Assembly: GCA_020720625.1 (NCBI GenBank) | Contig: DYOH01000006.1 | Coordinates: 21,135-85,134 of the forward strand | Reading direction: 5' to 3' | DNA from: Acetofilamentum sp. | Lineage (GTDB): Bacteria; Bacteroidota; Bacteroidia; Bacteroidales; DYOH01 | DNA: 64,000 nucleotides | Position numbers and translations under genes: made by a program | Notes under the pieces: generated by a model | What the model was told of the DNA's origin: nothing | The model's input: the letters and a program-made list of their open reading frames with translations, nothing else | The model's database searches: none | Part shown: piece after piece, positions 46,686 through 54,224 of the stretch | Layout: each line of letters starts with the position of its first letter | How positions within the stretch are numbered: position 1 is the first letter of the stretch

Positions 46686-46913
46686 TTTCCAAATTTGTAA
46701 ATAAAATGCAAATATCATGAACTCATTTTATTAATAAAATTTTTTATTTTCATAAAATGATTTTTTTTCGATGGCTTAAGTGTTTGTATATTAGATGTTA
46801 ATCGTTTTTCTTCTATTTCGTGCAATAAATAATTGACATATTATTTTAGCCATAATATAATTTTTCTTAATTTCGGCAGCTAGAAAAAAGAAGCGCAATG
46901 CTTTATATTTCTT

Positions 46914-47001
46914 GGAGAGATGGCCGAGTGGTCGAAGGCGCACGCCTGGAAAGTGTGTATACCTCAAAAGGGTATCGTGGGTTCGAATCCCACTCTCTCC
47001 G
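46914..47001 (+). tRNA. tRNA-Ser (anticodon GGA)
   Basis: GGAGAGA...TCTCTCC acceptor stem, long variable arm GTATACCTCAAAAGGGTATC, T-arm GGGTTCGAATCCC, anticodon loop CTGGAAA. Confidence 0.95.
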
Positions 47002-49540: not shown

Positions 49541-49576
49541 AAGTGGTTATGATTTTATAACCACTTTTTTTATTTT
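49541..49576 (+). terminator. Rho-independent terminator of exb operon
   Basis: AAGTGGTTAT-GATTTT-ATAACCACTT TTTTT. Confidence 0.9.
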
Positions 49577-49590
49577 TTTACCGGCTTTTT

Positions 49591-49621
49591 TTTGGTTTTT
49601 AAAAAGCATTAATTATCTTTG
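49591..49621 (+). promoter_or_regulatory. Bacteroidetes-type promoter of aromatic operon
   Basis: TTTG-N19-TATCTTTG. Confidence 0.65.
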
Positions 49622-49642
49622 ACTTTTGAAATAAATCTGAAA

Positions 49643-49720
49643 ATGAAATTATCTACATTATATTATTGGTTCTATTTTTATCTGGATATTACTGCCGGGA
49701 TGGAAAAGAACTGTAATTAA
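49643..49720 (+). CDS. Aromatic operon leader peptide MKLSTLYYWFYFYLDITAGMEKNCN
   Basis: 26-codon ORF including stop, just downstream of promoter, with seven consecutive Tyr/Trp/Phe codons. Confidence 0.8.
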   Translation: MKLSTLYYWFYFYLDITAGMEKNCN

Positions 49721-49769
49721 TTAAATTATTTACAAAAAGAACCCGGCGAGAAATCGACCGGGTTTTTTT
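49694..49769 (+). promoter_or_regulatory. Attenuator: antiterminator (GCCGGG 49694-49699 with CCCGGC 49742-49747) vs terminator (AACCCGGCGA-GAAA-TCGACCGGGTT-T7, 49740-49769)
   Basis: Mutually exclusive complementary segments visible in sequence, U-tract, located before the aromatic operon. Confidence 0.8.
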
Positions 49770-49818: not shown

Positions 49819-50994
49819 ATGATAATAGATGAAGCAGATGTTGTGAAAAGGGTGGAAGAGTATTTTTTTTCATCAAAATTGCGTGAGATTGCCAATATGC
49901 GAAAACAAGGTATTCCGGTAATTAATCTCGGCATAGGTAGCCCTGATTCTCCTCCACATGTAAGTGTTTTGAATGCTATGCATGAAAGTCTTGATAATCC
50001 AGGGGCACATGGTTATCAGGCATATAAGGGTAACGAAAATTTGCTCGATTCTATGGCTAGCTGGTACAACAAGTTTTTTGGTTTACAATTAATTGGAAAT
50101 GAGCATTTCTTGCCGCTTAATGGTTCTAAAGAAGGAATTAGCTTTATTCTACATGCGTTTATCAATCCTGGCGATAAAGTTTTGATTCCTAATCCTGGTT
50201 ATCCTACATATACATCGGCTGCTTTGCTGCATTATGCCGAAGTAGATTATTATGCTTTACGTTCTGAAAATTACTATTATCCTGATTTTGATTTGCTCGA
50301 AAAGCAAATTACGCCGCGCACCAAAATTATTTTTCTCAATTATGCACACATGCCCACAGGGGCACCTGCTACTATCGAAGTTTTCGATAAGTTTGTTTCT
50401 TTGGCAAAAAAATATAAAATTCTGTTGGTAAACGATAATCCTTATATTTTTTTACATGATAAACAATTAAGCATTTTTGCGGTGGAGGGTGCAATGGATG
50501 TGGCAATTGAACTAAATTCACTAAGTAAATCGCATAATTTGGCCGGTTGGCGCGTAGGAATGGCTGTGGGGGCGCCTGATTATATAAAATTACTACTTAA
50601 AATGCGCAGCAATGCTAATTCGGGGCATTTTTTACCAATACAGCATGCTGCCATCGAAGCCATGAATTTGCCCGACGACTGGTATGCCGAGCAATTAGCG
50701 ATTTATAAACGTCGCAGAGAGATTATTTTTCCGCTTTTGCGTTTTATAGATGCTGAATTTATTGAAAATCAGGCAGGTATGTTCGTCTGGGCTAAAATTC
50801 CGAAACAATTTGATTCTGGCGCTGCTTTGGCCGATTTTATTCTTAAAAAGGCCTTTGTTTTTGTTACAGAAGGCGCAGTATTTGGCTCGGAAGGAGAACA
50901 ATATTTCCGAATTTCGTTGAGTATAAACGATAAAGAACTTTCGGACGCAGCCATGCGTATAAAAGATTTATGGCTAAAGGAGGGGTATAAATGA
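49819..50994 (+). CDS. Class I/II PLP-dependent aminotransferase (aromatic operon)
   Basis: INLGIGSPDSPPH, NPGYPTYTSA, NDNPYIFL, ELNSLSKSHNLAGWRVG. Confidence 0.93.
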   Translation: MIIDEADVVKRVEEYFFSSKLREIANMRKQGIPVINLGIGSPDSPPHVSVLNAMHESLDNPGAHGYQAYKGNENLLDSMASWYNKFFGLQLIGNEHFLPLNGSKEGISFILHAFINPGDKVLIPNPGYPTYTSAALLHYAEVDYYALRSENYYYPDFDLLEKQITPRTKIIFLNYAHMPTGAPATIEVFDKFVSLAKKYKILLVNDNPYIFLHDKQLSIFAVEGAMDVAIELNSLSKSHNLAGWRVGMAVGAPDYIKLLLKMRSNANSGHFLPIQHAAIEAMNLPDDWYAEQLAIYKRRREIIFPLLRFIDAEFIENQAGMFVWAKIPKQFDSGAALADFILKKAFVFVTEGAVFGSEGEQYFRISLSINDKELSDAAMRIKDLWLKEGYK

Positions 50995-51857
50995 TTGTTT
51001 CAATAATTGGTCTGGGTCTTATTGGGGGCTCTATAGCTATTGACCTGCGCAAAAGGGGCTTTGCTAATTCTTTGTTAGGCATGGATGCAAATACCGAGCA
51101 TGCCGCTAAGGCATTAGAATTGGGTTTGGTTGATTCTATTGTAGATCATTACGAGCAATTAAGATTTAGTGATATCATTATTCTTGCAGTGCCTGTTGAC
51201 GCTGCCATTGCTTTGTTGAACAATATTCTGCCACTCCTCGATAATCAGTTGCTTATTGATGTTGGTTCTACAAAAGAGCCTTTGATTAATGCTGTTAATG
51301 GGAATGAAAAAAGACATCTGTTTTTAGCTGCGCATCCAATGGCTGGTACCGAATTCTCTGGCCCACAGGCTGCTATTTCCGGTTTGTTCGACCAAAAAGC
51401 GGTGATTTTCTGTAACGCCGAAGAGACAGATACTAATTTGGTTTACTTAGCCGATGCTATGTTTGCCGCACTTAAGATGAGAAGAATTGATATGGATGCA
51501 AAAAGCCATGATATTCACGCAGCTTATGTTTCTCATATTTCTCATATTAGTTCTTTTGCATTGGCTTTGAGCGTTTTACATAAAGAGAAAGATGAGAGAA
51601 GTATTTTCGAAATGGCCAGTGGAGGTTTTGCATCTACTGTTCGATTAGCCAAAAGTTCTCCGGATATGTGGGCACCGATTTTTATGCAAAATCGAAAAAA
51701 TGTGCTCGAAGTATTAGACACTTATATTAATTATTTATACGATTTTAAATTAGCCATATTTAATCAGGATAAAGAGAGATTACTTTTTTTGATGAATAAA
51801 GCTAATGATATTAAACCTATACTGAATTTAAAAGAAAAATTAACTGTAAAACCTTAA
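50991..51857 (+). CDS. tyrA: Prephenate dehydrogenase
   Basis: IIGLGLIGGSIAIDLRKRG; AAHPMAGTEFSGP; SHISHISSFAL. Confidence 0.93.
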   Translation: MIVSIIGLGLIGGSIAIDLRKRGFANSLLGMDANTEHAAKALELGLVDSIVDHYEQLRFSDIIILAVPVDAAIALLNNILPLLDNQLLIDVGSTKEPLINAVNGNEKRHLFLAAHPMAGTEFSGPQAAISGLFDQKAVIFCNAEETDTNLVYLADAMFAALKMRRIDMDAKSHDIHAAYVSHISHISSFALALSVLHKEKDERSIFEMASGGFASTVRLAKSSPDMWAPIFMQNRKNVLEVLDTYINYLYDFKLAIFNQDKERLLFLMNKANDIKPILNLKEKLTVKP

Positions 51858-51869
51858 AATTATAGAAGA

Positions 51870-52970
51870 ATGACAAATTTAGATATTATTCCATTGAAAG
51901 ATTGGGGATTGAACACTCAAAGACCCCTTGTTATGGCTGGTCCTTGTAGTGCCGAAACTGAAGAACAAGTGCTTAAAATAGCTTCTCAACTCGATAAAAC
52001 TAAGGTAAATGTATATAGAGCCGGTATTTGGAAGCCCAGAACAAGGCCGAACTCTTTTGAAGGTGTTGGCAGTGTGGGTCTTCGCTGGCTTCAGCTCGTA
52101 AAGCAAGAATACGGATTGAAAACTGCCACAGAGGTAGCCAATGTAAAACATGTGTATGAAGCTCTTAAGGCTGGGATTGATGTTATCTGGATTGGTGCCC
52201 GAACTTCGGCAAATCCTTTTGCAGTTCAGGAAATTGCAGACTCTCTTCGTGGGGTGGATATTCCTGTTTTTGTAAAGAATCCTGTGAATCCGGATTTGGA
52301 ATTGTGGATTGGTGCTATTGAACGAATTCATCAGGCTGGAATTAGCAGGGTAGGGGCTATTCATCGTGGTTTTTCTTCTTACGATAAATCCAAGTACAGA
52401 AATACGCCGCATTGGCAAATTGCCATTGACTTAAAACGGAAATTGCCTCAAGTGCCATTAATTAATGACCCTTCGCATATTACGGGAAATGCCGATTTGA
52501 TTGAAGTTGTTTCTCAGAAAGCAATGGACTTGAATTTTGATGGTTTAATGATTGAAACTCATTGCAATCCTCCCAAAGCGTGGAGCGATGCCAAACAGCA
52601 AATTACCCCGTTTCGTTTACATGAGATTTTGAATAATTTGGTGCTTCGTAAAGAATATATCGATGGCTCGCTCATGGACGATACCTTGGAAGAATTGAGA
52701 GCAAAAATAGATTACCTTGACAATGAATTGCTTGAAGTGTTGTTGCACCGAATGGATATTGTTGCAAAAATTGGTGAATGGAAAAAACAACATGGCATTA
52801 GTATTTATCAATCTGCTCGTTTTGAAAGTATCATGGATGCCGCTCGTCTGAAATCTATGAACATAGGTTTAAAAGAAGATTTTGCCGAAATCATTTTTAA
52901 ATCGATTCATGAGGAGTCTATCAGTATTCAAACGGCTATTTTAAATTCGGTCTTGCTCAAAAATAAGTAA
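51870..52970 (+). CDS. Bifunctional 3-deoxy-7-phosphoheptulonate synthase / chorismate mutase type II
   Basis: VMAGPCSAETEEQVLKIA, YRAGIWKPRTRPNSFEG, NDPSHITG; C-term chorismate mutase LEELRAKIDYLDNELLEVLLHRMDIVAKIGEWK. Confidence 0.96.
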   Translation: MTNLDIIPLKDWGLNTQRPLVMAGPCSAETEEQVLKIASQLDKTKVNVYRAGIWKPRTRPNSFEGVGSVGLRWLQLVKQEYGLKTATEVANVKHVYEALKAGIDVIWIGARTSANPFAVQEIADSLRGVDIPVFVKNPVNPDLELWIGAIERIHQAGISRVGAIHRGFSSYDKSKYRNTPHWQIAIDLKRKLPQVPLINDPSHITGNADLIEVVSQKAMDLNFDGLMIETHCNPPKAWSDAKQQITPFRLHEILNNLVLRKEYIDGSLMDDTLEELRAKIDYLDNELLEVLLHRMDIVAKIGEWKKQHGISIYQSARFESIMDAARLKSMNIGLKEDFAEIIFKSIHEESISIQTAILNSVLLKNK

Positions 52971-52973
52971 ATA

Positions 52974-54224
52974 ATGCATACAAGCGAATACAAAACTATT
53001 TCCGGTTTTTTGCAAGGTAGTGTGGCTGCTCCGGCTTCTAAAAGTGTTTTGCAGCGTGCTGTGGCTGCCGCTTTTTTAGCCGGAGGCAAATCTACTTTAG
53101 ATGGTTATACTCATAGTAATGACGTAGATGTGGCCATTCAAATTATTCGTTCTTTGGGGGCAGATGTTACAATGAGTAATCAACAATTGAGCATTACCCG
53201 GAGTGCATTTGGGCGAAGCAATAAGATTTATACCGGTGAGTCTGGTTTGTCTACTCGCTTGTTTACTCCTTTGGCTGCCTTGACAGGAAATGAGATGCAT
53301 TTCTCTGGTAGTGGTAGTATTCTTAAGCGTTCCATGCAATTTATGGTAGAGGCATTAGCTCAGTTTGGTGTGGAAATGCATACCAATAATGGTTTTATGC
53401 CTTACACAATTAAAGGTAAGCTTCGGGCTGCCAAGGCTTATATCGATGGCTCTCAAAGTTCGCAACTTATTAGTGGCCTGCTAATGGCTTTGCCTTTACT
53501 TAACGACGATAGCTTTATCGAAGTTAACAATTTGGCTAGCAAGCCCTATATCGACCTTACTTTGCAGGTGATGAATGAATTTGGCGTTAAGGCCGAAAAC
53601 CTAAACTACCAATCTTTTTTTATTCCGGGGAATCAGCACTATGATTCTGCTAATTTTTGGGTCGAAGGCGATTGGAGTGGCGCCGCATTTTGGTTTGTGG
53701 CTGCTGCGATTAGTGGTGATATTCTAATTTCAGGATTGGATAATAATTCTATGCAGGCCGATAAGCGTATTTTAGAAGCCTTAGATTTAGCCGGTGTTGG
53801 GTATGCATTGCAAAATAAAGACTTTATTGTGAGGCAAGCTGAGATTAAACCATTTGTTTTTGATGCCACGCATTGTCCTGATTTATTTCCTCCATTGGCG
53901 GTTTTGGCGGCTTATGCAAACGGAAAATCTTCGATTAAAGGTGTCTCTCGTTTGTTCGGGAAGGAGAGTAATCGTGCTTTGGCTATTGCAAACGAATTTT
54001 TAAAACAGGGTATAAAAGTACATATCGATGGTGATGAGATGATTATTTGGGGCGGAAAAGTTAGTGGCGGACAAAATTTTGATGCACATAACGACCATCG
54101 CATGGCAATGGCTGGGGCAATTCTGACCCTTAAGGCAGAAAATCCTATTACGGTAGTGGGAGCGGATGCGGTGGCTAAATCGTATCCCGATTTTTTTAAT
54201 CATCTTAAATTATTACTCCATTAA
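52974..54224 (+). CDS. aroA: 3-phosphoshikimate 1-carboxyvinyltransferase
   Basis: GSVAAPASKSVLQRAVAAAFLAGG, DGSQSSQLISGLLMALP, DHRMAMAGAIL. Confidence 0.95.
   Translation: MHTSEYKTISGFLQGSVAAPASKSVLQRAVAAAFLAGGKSTLDGYTHSNDVDVAIQIIRSLGADVTMSNQQLSITRSAFGRSNKIYTGESGLSTRLFTPLAALTGNEMHFSGSGSILKRSMQFMVEALAQFGVEMHTNNGFMPYTIKGKLRAAKAYIDGSQSSQLISGLLMALPLLNDDSFIEVNNLASKPYIDLTLQVMNEFGVKAENLNYQSFFIPGNQHYDSANFWVEGDWSGAAFWFVAAAISGDILISGLDNNSMQADKRILEALDLAGVGYALQNKDFIVRQAEIKPFVFDATHCPDLFPPLAVLAAYANGKSSIKGVSRLFGKESNRALAIANEFLKQGIKVHIDGDEMIIWGGKVSGGQNFDAHNDHRMAMAGAILTLKAENPITVVGADAVAKSYPDFFNHLKLLLH

Follow-up and report, generated by a model that had tools for sequence, protein, structure and literature searches.

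A predicted leader-peptide attenuator with a run of aromatic codons upstream of an aromatic amino acid operon, and its counterparts across Bacteroidia

Leader locus and aromatic amino acid operon

The window (the whole 64-kb stretch of DNA that was analysed) carries on its forward strand a four-gene operon for aromatic amino acid biosynthesis, preceded by a short leader ORF and a predicted intrinsic terminator that lies between this ORF and the first structural gene (Table 1). The promoter (TTTG-N19-TATCTTTG), the 25-aa ORF with its seven aromatic codons, the T7-tailed terminator and the order aminotransferase, tyrA, DAHP synthase/chorismate mutase and aroA had been proposed in an initial annotation, and all elements were recovered at the positions given there, with all four gene assignments confirmed. 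The start of the aminotransferase gene is most likely the ATG at 49819 rather than the TTG at 49768 of the mechanical ORF list, placing it 99 nt 3' of the leader stop codon and beyond the terminator. At the sequence level, the leader promoter is located directly 5' of the leader ORF and apart from the exbD-like gene upstream. It resembles promoters of the Bacteroidota primary-sigma type, with transcription predicted to start at ~49625-49628.

Table 1. Features of the leader locus and the downstream operon.
Feature	Position	Strand	Details
Terminator-like hairpin	49541..49566	+	3' of the upstream exbD-like gene; separates two transcription units
Candidate promoter	49591..49621	+	TTTG (49591-49594), 19 nt, TATCTTTG (49614-49621); read directly
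Leader ORF	49643..49720	+	25 aa, MKLSTLYYWFYFYLDITAGMEKNCN; direct reading and class-wide counterparts, including L004 and L022
Sensor (segment 1)	49661..49681	+	TAT TAT TGG TTC TAT TTT TAT (YYWFYFY)
Segment 2, antiterminator 5' strand	49693..49700	+	core GCCGGG (49694-49699)
Segment 3, terminator 5' arm and antiterminator 3' strand	49741..49748	+	core CCCGGC (49742-49747)
Predicted intrinsic terminator (segments 3:4)	49740..49769	+	T7 tail; folding, -16.3 kcal/mol alone
Class I/II aminotransferase, first operon gene	49819..50994	+
tyrA, prephenate dehydrogenase	50991..51857	+	NF006307 over cut-off
DAHP synthase fused to chorismate mutase type II	51870..52970	+
aroA, EPSP synthase	52974..54224	+	TIGR01356 over cut-off

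The YYWFYFY stretch is the sole run of at least seven aromatic codons in all six frames of the 64-kb window, and none of 3000 shuffled versions of the intergenic region yielded a start codon followed by such a run (M...[FWY]7). Segment 2 begins ~10 nt beyond the last aromatic codon. Its core is complementary to that of the terminator 5' arm, as the initial annotation had stated, so that antiterminator and terminator are mutually exclusive; the duplex of segment 2 with the arm reaches -14.6 kcal/mol, a value equalled by none of 100 shuffles. Due to a one-base bulge, the terminator was missed by a generic terminator scan and was therefore read by folding, with leader and terminator together giving z = -4.2 relative to dinucleotide shuffles. 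The leader stop codon is found ~20 nt beyond segment 2, so a ribosome halted there would probably sit between segments 2 and 3 and not on segment 2.

A search of the same assembly identified the operon-encoded enzyme as the only DAHP synthase found. The only other match (29% identical, partial length, one in-frame stop) would fit a KDO8P synthase. Prephenate dehydratase, sought with PF00800 or a same-genus protein (L118), was not found in this assembly (G000, 98.5% complete); phenylalanine auxotrophy, a different route or a gap in the assembly could account for this. The two nearest relatives of this genome do carry prephenate dehydratase, without a leader. Elsewhere in the window (46912-47001), the TTG-initiated reading listed at 46912 for an exbB/MotA-like gene runs into a tRNA gene of the same strand, and the protein-coding gene must therefore start farther downstream.

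Conservation among relatives

A same-genus locus (L004, MRLFSAYYLYYFYFWTNSSRDGIIL) and a same-family locus (L022, MILTVNKYWFYFYYRMLHK) carry leaders in front of the same aminotransferase gene. The segment after the run is kept in both (TCGGGA and GCCGGGA, respectively), as is the terminator arm (ACCCGGC), and the peptide outside the aromatic run varies even inside the genus. Since these peptides are alike in little except their aromatic content, selection appears to act on the codons and not on the peptide. This pattern bears on the idea that the leader owes its effect mainly to translational coupling, or to a small trans-acting peptide as with peTrpL, rather than to transcription termination. 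For Sinorhizobium, PMC7298713 reports a leader peptide that acts in trans; in the genus studied here, however, it is the peptide that varies and the terminator that is conserved, and the aminotransferase gene starts beyond the terminator, so that we regard this explanation as very unlikely.

For a wider survey, 80 named Bacteroidota loci (one genome per species) were combined with loci from 60 genomes of the order and family of the window; L024-L032 were left out because their aminotransferases are non-orthologous. A blind detector, calling ATG-initiated ORFs of 9-42 codons with at least five aromatic residues in eight and a terminator directly after them, was applied to 110 loci (850 kb) and returned 74 leader-terminator units on the operon strand versus 1 on the opposite strand. 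Because this strict detector misses real leaders with a bulged terminator (L003, L004) or weaker arms, such cases were checked by eye. Aromatic leaders were found in the same genus and family as well as in Bacteroidales, Chitinophagales, Saprospirales, Cytophagales and Flavobacteriales, including Phocaeicola (L096), Paludibacter (L054, L085), Chitinophaga (L045, L083), Saprospiraceae (L082), Hymenobacter (L075), Pseudarcicella (L039), Flavobacterium (L103, L105) and Galbibacter (L046). Most matches precede pheA, the first gene of the operon in the majority of lineages. In Sphingobacterium-type loci, which contain a lone aminotransferase gene, no leader was found. A TAnnTTTG box lies at most 75 nt 5' of the leader ATG in 51 of the 74 leaders (~4 expected from shuffles); a generic sigma-70 promoter scan (21 found, 20 expected) was uninformative for Bacteroidota. 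Conserved aromatic codon runs, for which the initial annotation had suggested looking in related genomes, are thus present there together with conserved terminators and a conserved promoter box.

To reduce sampling bias, we looked for prephenate dehydratase in a draw of 99 genomes spread evenly across the phylum. Under the strict rule, a leader precedes pheA in 13 of 20 Bacteroidia loci, and relaxed inspection adds four (L175, L176, L184 and L185), raising the count to 17/20. Among the pheA loci outside Bacteroidia in this draw, leaders were detected in 0 of 30 (L193 ends at a contig edge).

Covariation and spacing

Pairing between the run-to-terminator region and the terminator 5' arm was evaluated in 76 leaders. 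Briefly, the best duplex within a fixed window was determined in the same way for own, swapped and shuffled combinations, which avoids an alignment chosen to fit. The mean energy was -14.8 kcal/mol for each leader's own segment 2 and arm, -9.7 kcal/mol after swapping arms between loci and -6.8 kcal/mol with shuffled spacers. Own pairing was stronger than the mean swap in 76/76 leaders, many of which come from related loci and thus do not represent 76 independent events. The longest Watson-Crick block measured 6.5 nt (own) versus 4.6 nt (swapped), and 6.4 versus 4.4 nt for arms lacking CCCG. In total, 57 different Watson-Crick cores were observed, for instance GAGCAGGA/TCCTGCTC in Paludibacter, GAAGCGGGA/TCCCGCTTC in Phocaeicola, AAGTCGGTT/AACCGACTT in Pseudarcicella and GGGAGG/CCTCCC in Chitinophaga. 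The terminator 3' arm has to match the 5' arm as well, so that the changes extend over three segments at once. Compensatory change in the pairing that corresponds to 49694-49699 and 49742-49747, another feature to which the initial annotation had drawn attention, was thus found.

Segment 2 starts at a median distance of 8 nt (IQR 6-10) from the last aromatic codon across leaders. The stop codons form two groups, one close to where segment 2 begins and one ~20-35 nt 3' of segment 2, and few lie between the two; these groups perhaps reflect two ways to mask the antiterminator. A constant distance between run and segment 2, combined with a free position of the stop codon, would be expected if selection acted through stalled ribosomes whose leading edge is fixed.

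These data weigh on the possibility of a simple terminator or constitutive dampener, with an ORF that senses nothing and owes its many aromatic codons to U-rich sequence. U residues are indeed frequent in the region, and the runs use TTT and TAT most often. However, TTC, TAC and TGG account for 262 of the 711 aromatic leader codons, showing that aromatic residues are retained where other codons are used. Reading frame and start codon are conserved too, as is the spacing to segment 2. The strand bias of the detector matches, the conservation of the runs among relatives and the covariation of segment 2 with the terminator arm likewise speak against a sequence by-product, which we consider slightly less probable still than translational coupling or a peptide acting in trans.

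A further alternative is that a trans-acting RNA-binding protein, a T-box or a small-molecule riboswitch drives the terminator, with the peptide being secondary. Systems of this kind govern trp and aro genes in Firmicutes. Rfam scans of the window and 14 related loci, however, yielded no leader or T-box family over threshold; only segments 2-4 of the leader RNA are conserved, with changing letters, and the feature kept in all loci is the in-frame aromatic run. Control by such a factor is therefore as improbable as the by-product explanation.

Folding and proposed mechanism

Taken from the sequence and its counterparts in relatives, the element very probably controls the aromatic amino acid operon by ribosome-mediated (leader-peptide) transcription attenuation. 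The classical reading of the initial annotation gains support from the runs, terminators, promoter box and covariation in relatives. From these elements, their conservation, spacing and covariation, we infer coupled translation, stalling and a read-through that responds to aromatic supply, in the following order. RNA polymerase would start at ~49625, with a ribosome close behind it translating the 25-codon leader. A shortage of Tyr-, Trp- or Phe-tRNA would make the ribosome stall within YYWFYFY, with its leading edge at or before ~49690, and leave GCCGGG free to pair with CCCGGC once the latter has been made; the terminator would then be blocked and the operon transcribed. With an ample supply of charged tRNAs, the ribosome would pass the run and either cover segment 2 or part it from the arm. 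With segment 2 masked in this manner, the terminator could form and transcription would end before the aminotransferase gene.

Stepwise folding gave the antiterminator (-13.8 kcal/mol) for a ribosome stalled on the final Tyr codon with the 5' arm just made, and left only the terminator (-20.6 kcal/mol) for a ribosome at the stop codon. Folding of the whole leader in the stalled state gave -24.2 kcal/mol for the terminator versus -18.1 kcal/mol for the antiterminator. Given that the equilibrium fold favours the terminator, antitermination would have to win kinetically, as is usual for leader-peptide attenuators. The helix between run and segment 2 (1:2), which would have a protective role in a leader that is not translated, averages -13.3 kcal/mol across leaders, compared with -8.8 kcal/mol for shuffled sequences, and ranks in the best 5% in 39 of 76. 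That of the window alone is no better than shuffles, and a fold of the window without a ribosome still contains the antiterminator when the 5' arm emerges; together, these two results leave the default state of the untranslated leader uncertain.

Relation to known systems

The mechanism is of the classical trpL/pheL kind and already known. In E. coli and Salmonella, pheL and trpL are short leader ORFs carrying a run of end-product codons, with mutually exclusive antiterminator and terminator folds in front of a biosynthetic operon, and the layout of codon run, 2:3 and 3:4 folds and downstream operon is the same as at the locus described here. Unlike pheL and trpL, which each read one residue, the run in the window mixes Tyr, Trp and Phe; the promoter is of the Bacteroidota type, segment 2 begins 8-10 nt beyond the run, in many cases still within the ORF, and there is neither sequence homology nor an Rfam match. 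One leader reading several amino acids of a shared pathway is known from the enterobacterial ilvGMEDA (Ile, Val, Leu) and thr (Thr, Ile) operons, although here the residues are aromatic and the phylum is a different one.

A 2010 report, which itself adds a case from Firmicutes, states that no leader-peptide attenuation had until then been known beyond Proteobacteria and Actinobacteria, apart from the atypical ermC leader (PMC2965389). For Bacteroidota, only hints exist: short ORFs reminiscent of leader peptides occur in 5' UTRs of B. thetaiotaomicron (PMC7366714), and the main text of PMC9723704 reports clues to leader-peptide attenuation before amino-acid operons of Flavobacterium psychrophilum as well as structured 5' elements of pheA and hisG that are conserved in Flavobacteriaceae and lack Rfam matches. 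These elements share the class, the suspected mechanism and, for pheA, the pathway with the leader described here, but that main text gives no peptide, codon run, covariation or extent outside the family. The operon in the window differs in that it lacks pheA and the leader precedes an aminotransferase gene. A search of open-access main texts revealed no description of an aromatic leader across Bacteroidia. The view of the initial annotation that such a leader is poorly documented in Bacteroidetes hence stands for its class-wide occurrence and has to be qualified for Flavobacteriaceae, where the main text of PMC9723704 already reports the pheA and hisG elements and clues to attenuation.

Apparently new are the class-wide extent, the anatomy, the covariation and a three-aromatic sensor in front of the only DAHP synthase found. 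Bacteroidia largely lack Shine-Dalgarno initiation. On balance, we favour the broader view that the aromatic-codon attenuator is an ancestral, class-wide regulator of aromatic biosynthesis in Bacteroidia that operates without such initiation and implies close coupling of transcription and translation, and that it has turned into a three-aromatic sensor before the only DAHP synthase in the lineage of the window. If so, ribosomes are predicted to follow closely behind RNA polymerase in Bacteroidia, and the element would be a candidate regulator of the aromatic amino acid supply of bacteria that are abundant in the gut and the environment, with the leader codons providing a readout of the residues sensed by each lineage.

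Residues in the leader runs and tryptophan leaders

Phe and Tyr dominate among the 74 distinct leaders; Trp is present in 24 and all three aromatics in 22. Codons for all three residues, which the initial annotation proposed to be sensed by one leader, thus occur in the run in the window and in this subset, but most homologous leaders contain only Phe and Tyr. As judged from the gene content, a leader for all three residues before the only DAHP synthase would make metabolic sense. A pattern search of the same genome for histidine runs returned no leader-like ORF.

The same genome further contains, on contig C61 (L133, 1132-1372), two tandem Trp-rich leader ORFs (MKFISKNHIWWWLS and MNKNNWWHWSNFFSPK) before trpE, each followed by its own terminator, and WWW-type leaders precede trpE in relatives (L125, L127-L132 and L135). 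Like the leader in the window, they combine residue-rich ORFs with terminators; they differ in their Trp sensors (WWW, WWHW), in the trpE operon that follows and, in this genome, in being two in series. In the first of the tandem leaders, TAGTTGCA lies opposite TGCAACTA (by eye). AGCCCG in the second can pair with the terminator arm, with 19 of 200 shuffles doing as well (not significant). Two aromatic leader-terminator units in series before the same operon were also seen in Chitinophaga, Saprospiraceae and others (L020, L023, L045, L065, L077, L082, L083, L179 and L185), an arrangement that resembles a two-stage attenuator.
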